This document shows, piece after piece, positions 10,966 through 14,629 of a stretch of DNA of 15,781 nt. Numbering within the stretch: position 1 is the stretch's first letter; each line of letters starts with the position of its first letter. This DNA comes from Brevundimonas sp. UBA4609 (lineage in GTDB: Bacteria > Pseudomonadota > Alphaproteobacteria > Caulobacterales > Caulobacteraceae). The position numbers were made by a program, and so were the translations under genes. The notes beneath the pieces are model-generated. The model saw nothing but the letters and a program-made list of their open reading frames with translations. It had not been told where the DNA came from and did no database searches. The DNA lies in contig DGIZ01000197.1 of assembly GCA_002386585.1 (NCBI GenBank), positions 1 to 15,781 on the forward strand, in the 5' to 3' direction.

Positions 10966-12336
10966 ATGACTAGTCGCTGGACCCCCGAATCCTGGAGAAA
11001 CAAGCCCGTCCTGCATATGCCGACGGACTATCCGGACGCCGCCGAACTGGCGCGCGTCGAAGACGAGCTGCGCGCAATGCCGCCCCTCGTCTTTGCGGGC
11101 GAGGCGCGCAAGCTTACCGATCACCTGGCCCAGGTCGAGGCGGGCGACGCCTTCCTGCTGCAGGGCGGCGACTGCGCCGAGAGCTTCAAGGAGTTCTCGA
11201 CCGACAACATCCGCGACACCTTCCGCCTGATCCTGCAGATGGCGGTGGTGCTGACCTTCGCCGGTCGCAAGCCGGTGGTGAAGGTCGGCCGCATCGCCGG
11301 TCAGTTCGCCAAGCCGCGCTCGTCCCCGATCGAGGAGATCGGCGGGGTCGAGCTGCCGTCCTATCGCGGCGACATCATCAACGGCATGGGTTTCACGCCG
11401 GAAGAGCGCACGCCCGATCCGCAGCGCCTGATCCGCGCCTATAACCAGTCGGCCTCGACGCTGAACCTGCTGCGCGCCTTTGCGGGCGGGGGGTATGCCG
11501 ACCTCTACAACATCCACCGCTGGACGCTGGGCTTCGCCGACGACGGCGCGGGCGCGGCCTATCGCGAGCTGGCCGACAAGATCACCGAGGCCCTGGCCTT
11601 CATGGAGGCGGTCGGCGTCACGCCCGAGACGCATCCCGACCTGTCGCGCGTCGAGGTCTTCACCAGCCACGAAGCCTTGCTGCTGAATGTCGAGAGCGCC
11701 CTGACGCGCCTGGACGGCTCGACCGGCGAATGGTTCGACACCTCGGCCCACATGCTGTGGATCGGCGAGCGCACGCGTCAGCTGGACGGCGCCCACATCG
11801 AGTTCATGCGCGGCATCTCCAACCCCATCGGGGTCAAGTGCGGGCCGACCATGACGGCGGACGACCTGTTGCCGCTGATCGACGCCCTGAACCCGAATAA
11901 CATTCCGGGCCGCCTGACGCTGATCGGCCGCTTCGGCCACGACAAGGTGGGCGACCGCCTGCCGGGCCTGATGCGGGCGGTGAAGGCGGCGGGCAAACGC
12001 GTCATCTGGTCGATCGACCCGATGCACGGCAATACGCTGAAGGCCGGCAACGGCTACAAGACCCGGCCCTTCGACCGCGTCATGGGCGAGGTCCGCACAT
12101 TTATTGATGTTGCGGAGGCCGAGGGGGTCCACCCCGGCGGCGTCCACCTGGAGATGACCGGCCAGAACGTCACCGAGTGCATCGGCGGCGCCCAGGCGGT
12201 GACCGAGGACGACCTGTCGAGCCGTTACCACACCCATTGCGATCCGCGCCTGAACGCGGATCAGGCGCTGGAGATGGCCTTCCTGGTCGCCGAGCGTCTC
12301 AAGGCCGGGCGGCAGGCCCGGTCCGAGGCCGCATGA
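10966..12336 (+). CDS. Class II 3-deoxy-7-phosphoheptulonate (DAHP) synthase
   Basis: DAHP synthase condenses phosphoenolpyruvate and erythrose 4-phosphate, the first step of the shikimate pathway. This 456-residue protein is the plant-like class II type. Seen motifs are [27 protein letters not shown] and the metal ligands Cys70, His354 (SIDPMHGNT), Glu396 ([15 protein letters not shown]) and Asp426 (HTHCDPRLN). The His-Glu-Asp spacing of 42 and 30 residues equals that of the Mycobacterium tuberculosis enzyme. The N-terminus is short: it lacks the additional N-terminal segment that carries part of the aromatic-amino-acid sites in the mycobacterial protein, so its feedback control may differ. 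It starts at a likely leaderless ATG and its TGA overlaps the ATG of the prephenate dehydratase (ATGA), making the two an operon. Confidence 0.95.
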
Positions 12337-12899
12337 CGGCAGAAGACGAAACGCCCGGCCGCGTCGCCTATCAGGGCGCGCCGGGCGCCTTCAGCCACGA
12401 AGCCTGCCTGGACCTGCGTCCGTGGGACGAGGCGGTCGGCTTTGAGACCTTCCAGGGCGCGATCGACGCCGTCCTGAGCGGCGACTGCCATTGCGCCCTG
12501 ATCCCCGTCGAGAACTCGACCGTGGGCGTGGTCGAGCCCGCCGCTACGCTTGTGAGAGAGGCGGGACTTGTGGCGGTCAGCGACGCCTGGCGGCCGATCC
12601 GTCTGGCCCTGCTGGGCGTGCCCGAGGCGCGGTTATCGGACGTGAAGACGGCCGAGAGCCACCCGGTGGCCCTGCAGCAGTGCTCCAAGGCCCTGAAAGA
12701 GATGGCGATCACGGCCGTCGAAGTGTTCGACACCGGGGGCGCGGCCGCTGCGGTGGCCGAGGCGGGCGACGTCTCGCGCGCCGCCGTTGCGCCCGCTCGC
12801 GCGGCTGAGGTCTATGGGCTGTCGGTTCTGCGCAACGATCTGCAGGATTTCAGCGACAACCGCACACGGTTTGTCCTCTTCACGGCTCCTGAGGCTTGA
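12333..12899 (+). CDS. pheA: Prephenate dehydratase, catalytic domain only (no ACT domain)
   Basis: The enzyme converts prephenate to phenylpyruvate, the Phe-specific branch step. The 188-residue product has the catalytic motifs [16 protein letters not shown] (9-24), [15 protein letters not shown] (55-69), [13 protein letters not shown] (109-121) and the active-site DNRTRF (175-180, catalytic Thr178). It stops eight residues after TRF. Family members usually continue with an ACT domain of about 90 residues (GALV and ESRP motifs) that binds phenylalanine for feedback inhibition. None is encoded after the stop in any forward frame that I can see, so this is a short form and not a visible frameshift. 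It is translationally coupled to DAHP synthase (ATGA overlap). Substrate could also include arogenate. A second, ACT-containing copy elsewhere in the genome is possible. Confidence 0.88.
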
Positions 12900-12924
12900 C
12901 CGCGCATAAAATTTGCTGTTGTAA
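12896..12924 (+). promoter_or_regulatory. Candidate promoter for the Phe/Tyr leader and chorismate mutase transcript
   Basis: TTGACC (12896-12901) overlaps the stop codon of the prephenate dehydratase and belongs to CTTGAC, the strongest alphaproteobacterial -35 form. Seventeen bases later TTGTAA (12919-12924) is a mediocre -10. An alternative -10, TAAAAT (12907-12912), has no matching -35. Transcription would start near 12931, making a leader of about 280 bases before chorismate mutase. Confidence 0.4.
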
Positions 12925-12927
12925 GGC

Positions 12928-12963
12928 CCGGTCGGATCAACCCTGATCCAGAAACCGGACCGG
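12928..12963 (+). promoter_or_regulatory. Stem-loop immediately upstream of the leader peptide
   Basis: A perfect 6-bp hairpin GGATCA-ACCC-TGATCC (12934-12949) is enclosed by CCGGTC (12928-12933) pairing with GACCGG (12958-12963). The structure ends four bases before the leader ATG, so it may limit ribosome access to the leader, or act as a transcription pause site. Confidence 0.45.
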
Positions 12964-12967
12964 ATTC

Positions 12968-13069
12968 ATGTCCTCGCTGCGCGCACAAATGACCCTTGAA
13001 ACCACCTCGCGCGCGGTGGCCGGCTTTTATTTTGGCTACGGCTATTACGGCTTTCGATACGCCGGCTGA
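12968..13069 (+). CDS. Phe/Tyr-rich leader peptide (putative attenuator leader of chorismate mutase)
   Basis: A 33-residue ORF begins MSSLRAQMTLETTSRAVAG and ends FYFGYGYYGFRYAG. The tail holds three Phe and five Tyr within twelve residues, in a gap between two Phe/Tyr biosynthesis genes. All three Phe codons are TTT, while all three Phe codons of the downstream chorismate mutase are TTC; TTT is generally uncommon in genes here. Two of five Tyr codons are TAT. The peptide has no domain, signal sequence or other plausible job, and the ATG has only a weak GGA before it. This is what a transcription-attenuation leader looks like (as pheL, hisL and trpL do in enterics): ribosomes would stall over these codons when charged tRNA-Phe or tRNA-Tyr is scarce. 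The stop (13067-13069) lies inside a potential hairpin. Function is inferred from sequence alone. Confidence 0.75.
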   Translation: MSSLRAQMTLETTSRAVAGFYFGYGYYGFRYAG

Positions 13070-13133
13070 GGCGTCGGGCTTCTAACCAGACCCTGACTGT
13101 CTCGCTGGCGACCGCTTCTCCCCAAGCGGCCAG
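13016..13133 (+). promoter_or_regulatory. Attenuator region with alternative hairpins before chorismate mutase
   Basis: Overlapping, mutually exclusive pairings are visible. (1) GCCGGC 13019-13024 with GCCGGC 13061-13066, enclosing all Phe/Tyr codons. (2) ACGCC 13059-13063 with GGCGT 13070-13074. (3) GTCGGG 13073-13078 with CCTGAC 13092-13097, one G-U pair. (4) CCA/GAC 13086-13091 with GTC/TGG in 13099-13108. (5) CTGG plus CCGCTT (13105-13108, 13112-13117) with AAGCGG plus CCAG (13124-13133), loop CTCCCC. Hairpin 5 is the strongest and is the terminator candidate, though no T-run follows. A ribosome stalled on the Phe/Tyr codons blocks 1 and 2 and could favour 3 or 4; pairing 4 takes the CTGG strand of 5. 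The remaining bases to 13209 carry a weak GTCG/CGAC stem (13159-13174). Pairings were found by eye, without energies. Confidence 0.5.
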
Positions 13134-13209
13134 TACGCGCGTTCACGCCTGACCTTCTGTCGGCGGGACGCGACCTCCCCATCGAAACCCATGCTGAAAG
13201 CCATCTCCC

Positions 13210-13971
13210 ATGTCGCAATCCGCCATCCAGCAAGTCTGGCCCGCCGAAACCGTTGAACTGAGCGCCGAACAGAAGGCGCTGGCCGCCCTGCGCGCCGAAA
13301 TCGACAGCCTGGACGATCAGATCCTCGAACTGTTCGAGCGCCGCCTGGCCGTCGCCGCCCAGGTGGGCAAGGCTAAGGACGCTCCGACCGGCCCCCACAC
13401 CAAGCTGCGCCCCGACCGCGAACAGGCCGTCCAGGCCCGCATCCTGAAGCAGTGCGAACCCGAGAACCGCGAGGCGGTCGAGCATCTGTGGCGCGAGATC
13501 GTCGGTTGGGGTCTGGCCCGTCAGGGCCGCCTGCAGGTCCAGGTCTGGGCCCCGATCGACCCGGCCAAGGCCGTCGACGGCGCCCGCCTGCGCTTCGGCG
13601 CCGCCGCCGACATCAAGCTGGTCCTCGATCCGCAGGCCGCCCTGGCCCATGCGGCCGAGGGCAAGGGCGTGGCCGTCCTGTCCATCAGCGGCGATGATCC
13701 CTGGTGGATCGGCCTGCGCCGCGAATGGTCGATGCTCAGCGTCTTCGACGGTTACGGCGGCGAGACGCCGACGTCGCTGGCTGTCGGCAAGATCGATCCG
13801 CCGGCTCTGCCCAAGGGCCGCCGCGTCGTCGTCACCGCGGGCGGCGATGCGGGCGACGGTTCGGGCGCGCGTCGCTGGGGCCTGAACACTCACCACGGCT
13901 GGAGCCTGGCCCTGACCGACGCCGATGTGGCGCCGGGCGATGTCGAAGGCTGCGTCGGCGCCATCGGCTGA
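13210..13971 (+). CDS. Chorismate mutase (AroQ type) with C-terminal domain of unknown function
   Basis: Chorismate mutase makes prephenate, committing chorismate to Phe and Tyr. Residues 22-105 are an AroQ helical domain: LRAEIDSLDDQILELFERR, LAVAAQVGKAK, LRPDREQAVQARIL. Residues matching the E. coli active site are present: Arg28 (E. coli Arg11), Arg44 (Arg28), Lys56 (Lys39), Arg70 (Arg51), Glu71 (Glu52) and Gln105 (Gln88, by alignment). Residues 106-253 form a second domain (QVQVWAPIDPAKAVDGARLR; GKGVAVLSISGDDPWWIGLR; KGRRVVVTAGG; HHGWSLALTDADV) that I cannot name. It lacks a dehydratase TRF or dehydrogenase motif and may be regulatory. The gene follows the Phe/Tyr leader region and the DAHP synthase-prephenate dehydratase operon. 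The ribosome binding site is weak (GAAAG, 13196-13200). Confidence 0.9.
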   Translation: MSQSAIQQVWPAETVELSAEQKALAALRAEIDSLDDQILELFERRLAVAAQVGKAKDAPTGPHTKLRPDREQAVQARILKQCEPENREAVEHLWREIVGWGLARQGRLQVQVWAPIDPAKAVDGARLRFGAAADIKLVLDPQAALAHAAEGKGVAVLSISGDDPWWIGLRREWSMLSVFDGYGGETPTSLAVGKIDPPALPKGRRVVVTAGGDAGDGSGARRWGLNTHHGWSLALTDADVAPGDVEGCVGAIG

Positions 13972-14020
13972 CCGCAGGCCGTTAACTCCGTCTCAAAGCA
14001 GGGCGGGCGAGGGTGGCTGC

Positions 14021-14629
14021 ATGGCACAGCCCGCCCTGCATCGATCGCGCCGCGTCGTCGCCCTTGCGGCGGCTGCGCTGACGCTTGCGGGCTGCGGCGT
14101 GAACGAAGCCGATCCCAATCGCTTCGAGACCCTGGCGCAGTCGGTGGCTTCCATTCCAGTGTCGGCTGAAGACGAGGGCGAGGCGCGGCCGACCGTCACG
14201 CCGGATCAGCCGCGCGAGCGAGCTGCGCCGTTGAAGGTCGAGCTGATGACCCCGCACGAACTGTGGGACGCCCGCGAAGGGGTGACAGCCAGGGTTCGCC
14301 TCGCCTCCGCGTCAACGCCGACGAACGACCCTGATCTCGAGACGCCGCCTGCGGCCGTTGCGGCGCAGCCCGCGACCGCCGTCCGCCAGGTGCAACTCGG
14401 CGCCTATTCCAGCGAAGACGGCGCCCGCGCGGCCTGGGCGCGGCTGAGCCGAGGGCCGGGCGGGGCGGCGCTGTCCGGGCTTCAACCCGCCTATGAGGCG
14501 GTGGAGGTCGGCGGGCGTCGCCTGGTCCGGCTGAAGGTCGCCGCCTCCGTCGAACAGGCTCAGGCCCTGTGCCGCGACCTGGCGGCGTCGGACCCATGGT
14601 GCGCGCGATCCGGCGCCGCTGCGGCCTGA
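14021..14629 (+). CDS. SPOR-domain lipoprotein
   Basis: From ATG 14021 the 202-residue product has a basic N-terminus (HRSRR), a hydrophobic stretch and the lipobox LAGC with Cys25, so it should be a lipid-anchored envelope protein. The middle (28-125) is Pro/Ala/Glu-rich and probably disordered. Residues 128-195 look like a SPOR domain, the peptidoglycan-binding fold for denuded septal glycan: VRQVQLGAYSSEDGARAAWA, then RLVRLKVAASVEQAQALCRD. SPOR proteins usually act in cell division or wall remodelling, which fits its neighbour mipZ. The start is supported by GAGGG (14009-14013) seven bases upstream; a longer reading from 13925 would put the signal in the interior. It begins 49 bases after chorismate mutase. 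Which SPOR protein it is cannot be told. Confidence 0.82.
   Translation: MAQPALHRSRRVVALAAAALTLAGCGVNEADPNRFETLAQSVASIPVSAEDEGEARPTVTPDQPRERAAPLKVELMTPHELWDAREGVTARVRLASASTPTNDPDLETPPAAVAAQPATAVRQVQLGAYSSEDGARAAWARLSRGPGGAALSGLQPAYEAVEVGGRRLVRLKVAASVEQAQALCRDLAASDPWCARSGAAAA

Follow-up and report, generated by a model that had tools for sequence, protein, structure and literature searches.

Does the small open reading frame (ORF) in front of a chorismate mutase gene of Brevundimonas sp. UBA4609 control this gene and, if so, does it act on transcription or on translation? We addressed this question by computational analysis of a DNA stretch of 15,781 nucleotides (the window). On the basis of Pfam and NCBIfam profiles, three enzyme genes that presumably form an operon were assigned on its forward strand: a class II DAHP synthase gene (10966-12336; TIGR01358 above cutoff), a prephenate dehydratase gene encoding the catalytic domain only (12333-12899; PF00800, residues 11-185 of 188), and the presumed regulated gene, which encodes an AroQ-type chorismate mutase (CM; 13210-13971; PF01817, E 2.3e-16, residues 27-105). 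An earlier note on this DNA had placed a Phe/Tyr-rich ORF of 33 codons between prephenate dehydratase and the AroQ mutase, and had proposed that it works like the leader of enteric pheL while reading both amino acids. Both the ORF and its position are borne out by the sequence and by the PF00800 and PF01817 matches upstream and downstream of it.

The leader ORF (12968-13069, forward strand) starts with ATG, contains 33 codons followed by TGA, and reads MSSLRAQMTLETTSRAVAGFYFGYGYYGFRYAG. Its Phe/Tyr codon tract FYFGYGYYGFRY (13025-13060, forward strand), in which the in-frame enrichment precedes a constant core described below, holds the three Phe and five Tyr in 12 residues that had been counted before. 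With these eight residues, it is the stop-free 12-mer richest in Phe and Tyr across the six reading frames of the window, the next unrelated 12-mer having five, and in 60 Markov-1 copies of the window the number per 12-mer did not exceed five. Directly 5' of the leader there is an inverted repeat, GGATCA-ACCC-TGATCC (12934-12949), and a GATC..GATC repeat is found at this place in 48 of 114 leaders.

To describe the coding signal, codons were counted in 83 leaders that are distinct across the 45 nt before the core, and were numbered from the core Phe (codon 0). Over the nine codons that lead up to the core, the share of Phe plus Tyr is 47% in the leader frame, compared with 4.6% and 11% in the two alternative frames; the value for CM itself is 2.7%. 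The maxima lie at codons -3 (0.89), -2 (0.90), 0 (1.00) and +2 (0.96), of which 0 and +2 belong to the constant core. Phe and Tyr alternate at one and the same position (F 55 and Y 19 at -3; Y 31 and F 13 at -5). The suggestion that the leader reads both amino acids thus stands as far as the codons are concerned, the two being interchangeable at leader positions. Synonymous codons differ as well, and at several positions both TAT and TAC are seen with Tyr kept. The use of TTT for all three Phe codons of the leader, to which the earlier note had drawn attention, is a property of the window's genome, where the three operon enzyme genes have TTC 23 times versus TTT 5 times; it does not extend to the relatives, which have TTC 36 times and TTT 19 times at codon -3 and constant TTT in the core only. 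No in-frame stop codon occurs within the last nine codons, and an in-frame ATG is present in 114 of the 115 leaders of the locus set defined below, the exception (L100) having GTG alone and a 10-codon reading.

These data bear on the idea that the ORF is fortuitous, that only the structure of the RNA has a function, and that the Phe/Tyr codons are just a U-rich anti-Shine-Dalgarno sequence. The Phe codons UUU and UUC do complement GAAA, and the folding model presented below pairs the CM Shine-Dalgarno sequence with the tract in many species. However, a chance ORF accounts neither for an enrichment confined to one frame, nor for the stop-free last nine codons and the nearly universal ATG, nor for a Tyr that is preserved by TAT and TAC alike, and we regard it as extremely unlikely. 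The leader therefore appears as a short ORF rich in codons for the end products of the pathway, as is found in amino acid attenuators.

When 121 Brevundimonas genomes were searched for the CM protein, 117 gave a match and four did not. The 3' end of the leader is present upstream of CM in all of the 110 loci that were examined first. As for the remaining seven genomes, G055 and G082 also contain the leader, G116 has merely 17 bases 5' of the CM match, and G005, G034, G051 and G072 are outside the counts. Of 40 CM loci in Caulobacteraceae outside Brevundimonas, six have the leader (genera g3, g9 and g10), and no Phe/Tyr-dense ORF of this kind was found at the other 34 loci, which represent 16 other genera of the family; in ten of these 34, a search with covariance model R1 gave 11.5 bits at best. 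The set of 115 loci used throughout consists of the first 110 Brevundimonas loci plus L118, L119, L121, L122 and L123; L120 (g10), which also has the leader, is not included, since no usable CM start is reached before the end of its contig. The comparison across genomes suggested in the earlier note thus revealed a Phe/Tyr-dense ORF with a drifting N-terminus that is kept before CM in Brevundimonas and three sister genera.

Searches at the DNA and RNA levels were also carried out. A DNA pattern consisting of the core and a second anchor matched 107 stretches in species representatives, of which 101 are the leader, and 97 of these 101 have a CM motif at most 700 bases away. The other six (L163, L195, L202, L210, L237 and L244) fit the pattern and proved, on reading, to be unrelated sequences; the pattern had no matches in viral contigs. 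Using strict filters on 249 genomes of the order, R1 matched 22 Brevundimonas genomes and, at E 1e-4 to 0.009, six others. No Phe/Tyr leader is present at four of the six matches outside the genus, namely those other than G436 and G389, nor at a second weak match in the window's own genome; four of these five weak matches lie inside open coding frames and the one in G321 lies at the end of a frame. Because R1 also gives 21.6-29.5 bits for five sequences that match the DNA pattern without being related, scores of about 30 carry little weight. For G202, a weak CM match was all that was obtained, and there was no RNA match.

In a tree of 68 N-terminal parts of CM, built from few columns and with a warning for long branches, all 34 leader-bearing rows fall, together with two leaderless rows of genus g17, in one fork with a support of 100/100. 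In g17 (L137 and L153) the leader is absent and the CM frame begins close behind class II DAHP synthase, and judged from this arrangement the absence looks like a secondary loss. The idea that the leader travels with prephenate dehydratase was abandoned: the end motif of this enzyme is found upstream in 109 of the 115 loci, in none of the five g3, g9 and g10 loci, and is absent in L111. Two minor observations concern metagenome-assembled genomes (MAGs). One MAG has a second CM locus (L291; G094:C127), which may be contamination, and its leader has fewer Phe/Tyr codons and the core kept; another MAG, labelled Bordetella (L206), has a Brevundimonas leader and CM and is probably mislabelled or contaminated.

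The 3' end of the leader contains a near-invariant core, TTTCGATACGCCGG (13052-13065, forward strand), which comprises the codons for F, R, Y and A and the first two bases of that for G, and whose nucleotides are the same in nearly all leaders. In the leader end TTT CGA TAC GCC GGC TGA, the codons TTT, CGA and GCC are present in 83 of the 83 distinct leaders, and TAC and TGA in 80 each. A pattern search of 199 genomes of the family in which the wobble positions were free gave 36 matches, of which 35 are identical and one has a single-base difference. The first core pattern covered 107 of 110 loci; L094, L111 and L112 are outside that pattern and within the 115-locus counts. The constancy of the peptide end is hence a consequence of that of the RNA. 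Even where CM is just 39-48% identical to that of the window, the core is retained, also in g3, where the frame reads seven codons beyond the usual stop and the partner of the helix named P1 below is lost.

Could the peptide itself be the functional product? FRYAG is nearly constant and the stop codon follows directly in 81 of the 83 distinct leaders, which would fit a TnaC-like nascent chain whose end, on sensing free Phe or Tyr, causes the ribosome to stall at the stop codon. Such an arrest peptide would have a conserved C-terminus with free synonymous variation. What we observed is constancy at the nucleotide level, in TTT, CGA and GCC, which the peptide does not need; moreover, g3 leaders extend seven codons further, and FRRAG and FRHAG variants occur. 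We therefore consider nascent-chain arrest very unlikely.

The invariance of the core appears to exceed the needs of coding and pairing, and because of this apparent excess a second partner of the leader RNA is conceivable. This leads to another alternative, in which a ligand or a protein binds to the core and the adjacent hairpins, with the leader codons playing a minor part or providing a second input. That TTTCGATACGCCGG and CYGGCGACC are both near-invariant, even at the low CM identities just mentioned and with P1 lost in g3, speaks for this alternative, and a protein is favoured for a similar element, the LEU element, in the available part of PMC1262725. A binding site would leave unexplained why Phe and Tyr are enriched in one frame and replace each other. 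A search with Rfam 15 gave no match in the whole window at gathering scores, nor in 12850-13300 at E values up to 1. Altogether, we judge it improbable that a binding site is the main function.

The region between the leader and CM is rich in predicted structure, and none of 100 shuffled sequences folds as well as the window's leader RNA (z -4.2). The structure counts cover three nested helices. Helix P1 is a proposed pairing between GGCUUUCG (13049-13056, forward strand), at the leader end, and UGAAAGCC (13195-13202, forward strand), which holds the presumed CM Shine-Dalgarno sequence GAAAG (13196-13200). Hairpin P2 (13060-13110, forward strand) has the leader stop codon in its 5' arm; its closing helix is found in 114 of 115 loci, the exception being L100, for which the inner anchor had been taken and to which R1 gives 80.7 bits, and its upper stem has a quite different sequence in g10 and g9. 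Hairpin P3 (13112-13129, forward strand) begins one nucleotide 3' of P2. A second upstream complement of UUUCGAU, the sequence AUCGAAA, is present at 13181-13187 of the forward strand, and may pair likewise.

Leader-end/CM-start complementarity is found in nearly all loci: a score of at least 15 was reached in 110 of 115, compared with 15% of 2300 shuffles, and with 4 of 32 CM start regions from leaderless genera (2 of the 34 being without a start). Part of this complementarity is inherent, as any GAAAG can face any CUUUC. The five loci with a poor partner (L106, L110, L112, L122 and L123) have nonetheless kept the core. GAAAG is present in 102 loci and absent from the other 13 of the 115; where it is present, the base 5' of it is C in 81, T in 21 and a purine in none, and both C and T pair with the facing G; elsewhere in those loci, a purine precedes GAAAG in 23 of 81 cases. 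In an alignment of 33 loci, 91.7% of the cells of P1 and 97.6% of those of P2 are paired, and sliding the partners of P1-P3 by one to three columns reduces the share of paired cells, 94% in the counted structure, to 40-49%. Both partners have changed in two pairs of P1 and in four of P3; the total of such pairs was eight, versus a mean of 4.1 for shuffled partners, and one of 500 shuffles was as high, a comparison that is inflated by relatedness. RNAalifold did not predict P1 from the full alignment, and the covariation term was small (-0.81). Covariation of P1 is thin because its 5' strand hardly varies. The CM Shine-Dalgarno region is thus complementary to leader RNA, as in translational attenuators.

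The earlier note's analogy with the mechanism of enteric pheL, on the other hand, found no counterpart in the sequence. No intrinsic terminator was detected in a scan of positions 12700-14100, and a U-run, scored as at least five T per 8-nt window located 10-36 nt past the second anchor, is present in just 1 of 115 loci. In addition, the longest T run between P2 and the Shine-Dalgarno region is at most three in 112 of 115 loci. A U-run terminator hairpin competing with an antiterminator, which characterizes a transcription attenuator, was consequently not found. Under transcription attenuation, leader translation would determine whether transcription is terminated before CM or continues by antitermination, with termination either at an intrinsic terminator like that of pheL or through the action of Rho on RNA that is not translated. 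A leader ORF with cognate codons is the classic sign of such attenuation, two strong hairpins lie 3' of the ORF, and the spacer past P3 would be untranslated; Rho is also named as one possibility for the leader peptides of actinobacterial cys and cbs operons that have no terminator in the accessible text of PMC1262725. Against this, there are the results of the terminator scan and the virtual absence of U-rich stretches after P3, which concern the intrinsic type, and an intrinsic terminator would have no need of complementarity between the leader RNA and the CM start. For these reasons we hold transcription attenuation to be unlikely. Because the leader coding RNA is complementary to the ribosome-binding site of CM, control of translation initiation is indicated instead.

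The effect of a ribosome on this pairing was modelled for 59 loci, with folding at 30 °C and the ribosomal A site scanned from codon -14 to codon +6. The mean openness of the Shine-Dalgarno sequence is 0.19 without a ribosome; it is unchanged with the A site at codons -14 to -5 (0.18-0.23) and becomes 0.48-0.54 with the A site at codons -4 to +6, the only part of the scanned range in which it rises. At codons -3, 0 and +2, a gain of more than 0.1 is predicted for 46, 47 and 42 of the 59 loci, respectively, and a loss of more than 0.1 for 3, 3 and 4. Since the range of the rise covers the Phe/Tyr maxima, the codons at which a pause would be effective are those most fixed as Phe or Tyr.

In 33 diverse loci, the modelled partner of the Shine-Dalgarno sequence is split between the core (0.38) and the preceding 40 nt, that is, the Phe/Tyr tract (0.35). 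Masking the core lowers Shine-Dalgarno pairing in these loci from 0.79 to 0.65, and masking a control stretch leaves it at 0.79. Because the partner is divided in this way, the whole leader coding RNA would be the lock, with the core as its most constant part. In the model for the RNA of the window, the Shine-Dalgarno sequence pairs mainly with the tract (0.56; core 0.06), and masking the core does not open it (pairing 0.62 before and 0.65 after). It is 38% open without a ribosome, 0.43-0.61 open with the A site at codons -4 to +3, and 0.23 open at +4, and the modelled effect of the ribosome is modest in this RNA.

Taken together, we think with moderate confidence that the leader is a cis-acting translational attenuator for CM that senses Phe and Tyr, rather than a terminator of the pheL type. 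According to this proposal, a short peptide-coding frame that finishes with Phe/Tyr codons lies on the mRNA between prephenate dehydratase and CM, and the core GGCUUUCGAU, in some species together with the preceding Phe/Tyr codons, would pair with the CM Shine-Dalgarno sequence across P2 and P3, this P1-type pairing keeping down the translation of CM. With charged tRNA-Phe or tRNA-Tyr in short supply, the ribosome on the leader would pause at the last Phe/Tyr codons, cover the anti-Shine-Dalgarno stretch and so expose the CM start; when both charged tRNAs are plentiful, it would terminate at the stop codon and depart, and the CM start would be hidden again. Opening of the CM start by the paused ribosome is predicted by the folding model, and we infer leader translation, the sensing of tRNA charging and the effect on CM.

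The leader end, GGC UUU CGA U, presumably resembles the tail of 16S rRNA that binds Shine-Dalgarno sites, and because of this resemblance the supply of Phe and Tyr might be read on the very bases that lock the enzyme start. We tentatively extend the proposal, although we doubt that it goes this far, to a two-signal switch at the Phe/Tyr branch point, in which one set of nucleotides both makes up the sensing codons and acts as the switch, and the extra invariance of the core reflects a second input, be it an alternative fold, a protein or a ligand.

How does such a translational attenuator relate to known systems? The pheL leader of enteric bacteria acts by transcription termination and is not known to read amino acids other than Phe, and Rfam includes a Phe leader family. 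The CM leader shares with pheL a Phe-rich leader peptide before the chorismate mutase step, and differs from it in having both Phe and Tyr codons and no terminator that we could find. In translational attenuation of the ermC type, a leader ribosome that has stalled frees a sequestered start site; there, the stall is caused by an antibiotic, whereas in the CM leader it would be caused by a codon without charged tRNA. The rtpLP leader of the B. subtilis anti-TRAP gene, said to have been described by Chen and Yanofsky in 2003 and 2004, reportedly controls downstream translation initiation through pausing at Trp codons. Pausing on cognate codons would thus govern the translation start of the next gene in both cases. 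In rtpLP it is reportedly the terminating ribosome itself that masks the start, whereas an RNA helix would do so in the CM leader; furthermore, rtpLP concerns Trp, a T-box above it and the gene of a regulatory protein, and the CM leader an enzyme gene.

By analogy, the nearest published layout is that of the LEU element, located upstream of leuA in Actinobacteria, in which a run of Leu codons has been proposed to pair with the leuA Shine-Dalgarno sequence (PMC1262725, as far as its text was available). In both, the leader ORF includes a run of codons for the amino acids of the pathway, and conserved RNA lies between this run and the Shine-Dalgarno sequence; other attenuator elements are likewise said, in that portion of the paper, to be missing from the LEU element. 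Pairing of cognate codons with the Shine-Dalgarno sequence of the enzyme gene is seen in the CM leader as a computed pairing. The two differ in the amino acids (Leu; Phe and Tyr), the gene (leuA; chorismate mutase), the fold (a pseudoknot; two adjacent hairpins) and the phylum. In the same portion, mutations of the Leu codons are reported to be without effect on regulation, and the authors doubt codon sensing and prefer a protein. A conserved upstream ORF rich in the amino acids of its own pathway, as in the CM leader, is also part of the ilvB-II motif of Corynebacterium, where it is connected with transcription attenuation and branched-chain amino acids (PMC10272879, in the part available).

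No report of a Phe/Tyr leader before CM was found among the matches listed in a search of the open-access literature. A coding map of Caulobacter crescentus (PMC4117421, available in part) gives leader coding sequences for trpS and ilvIH, and neither 'chorismate' nor 'phenylalanine' occurs in its main text. By term search, 'chorismate' is also absent from an alphaproteobacterial motif paper (PMC1273637) and from a paper on 104 RNAs (PMC2864571). If our proposal is true, an alphaproteobacterium has an amino acid attenuator that acts on translation and not on transcription, and that reads Phe and Tyr as one pool at the enzyme feeding both. The CM leader would also be a second, unrelated example of the LEU layout, the mechanism of which is left unsettled in the accessible part of PMC1262725, and would provide a testable case for the question of whether a run of codons acts as a sensor if it pairs with a Shine-Dalgarno sequence.

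A possible reason for such control is found in the neighbouring gene. The prephenate dehydratase of the window (188 aa) has no match to an ACT domain, and in 109 of the 115 loci the upstream frame stops 5-8 residues past the NxTRF motif of prephenate dehydratase, so the loss of the Phe-binding domain appears to be fixed in Brevundimonas. Because the neighbouring enzyme has no ACT domain, the leader may stand in for lost feedback. With respect to the other genes, the C-terminal part of CM 3' of the AroQ domain, about 150 residues (106-253), has no Pfam match, and the DAHP synthase and prephenate dehydratase genes overlap in ATGA (12333-12336), an arrangement suggesting that translation of these two genes may be coupled.
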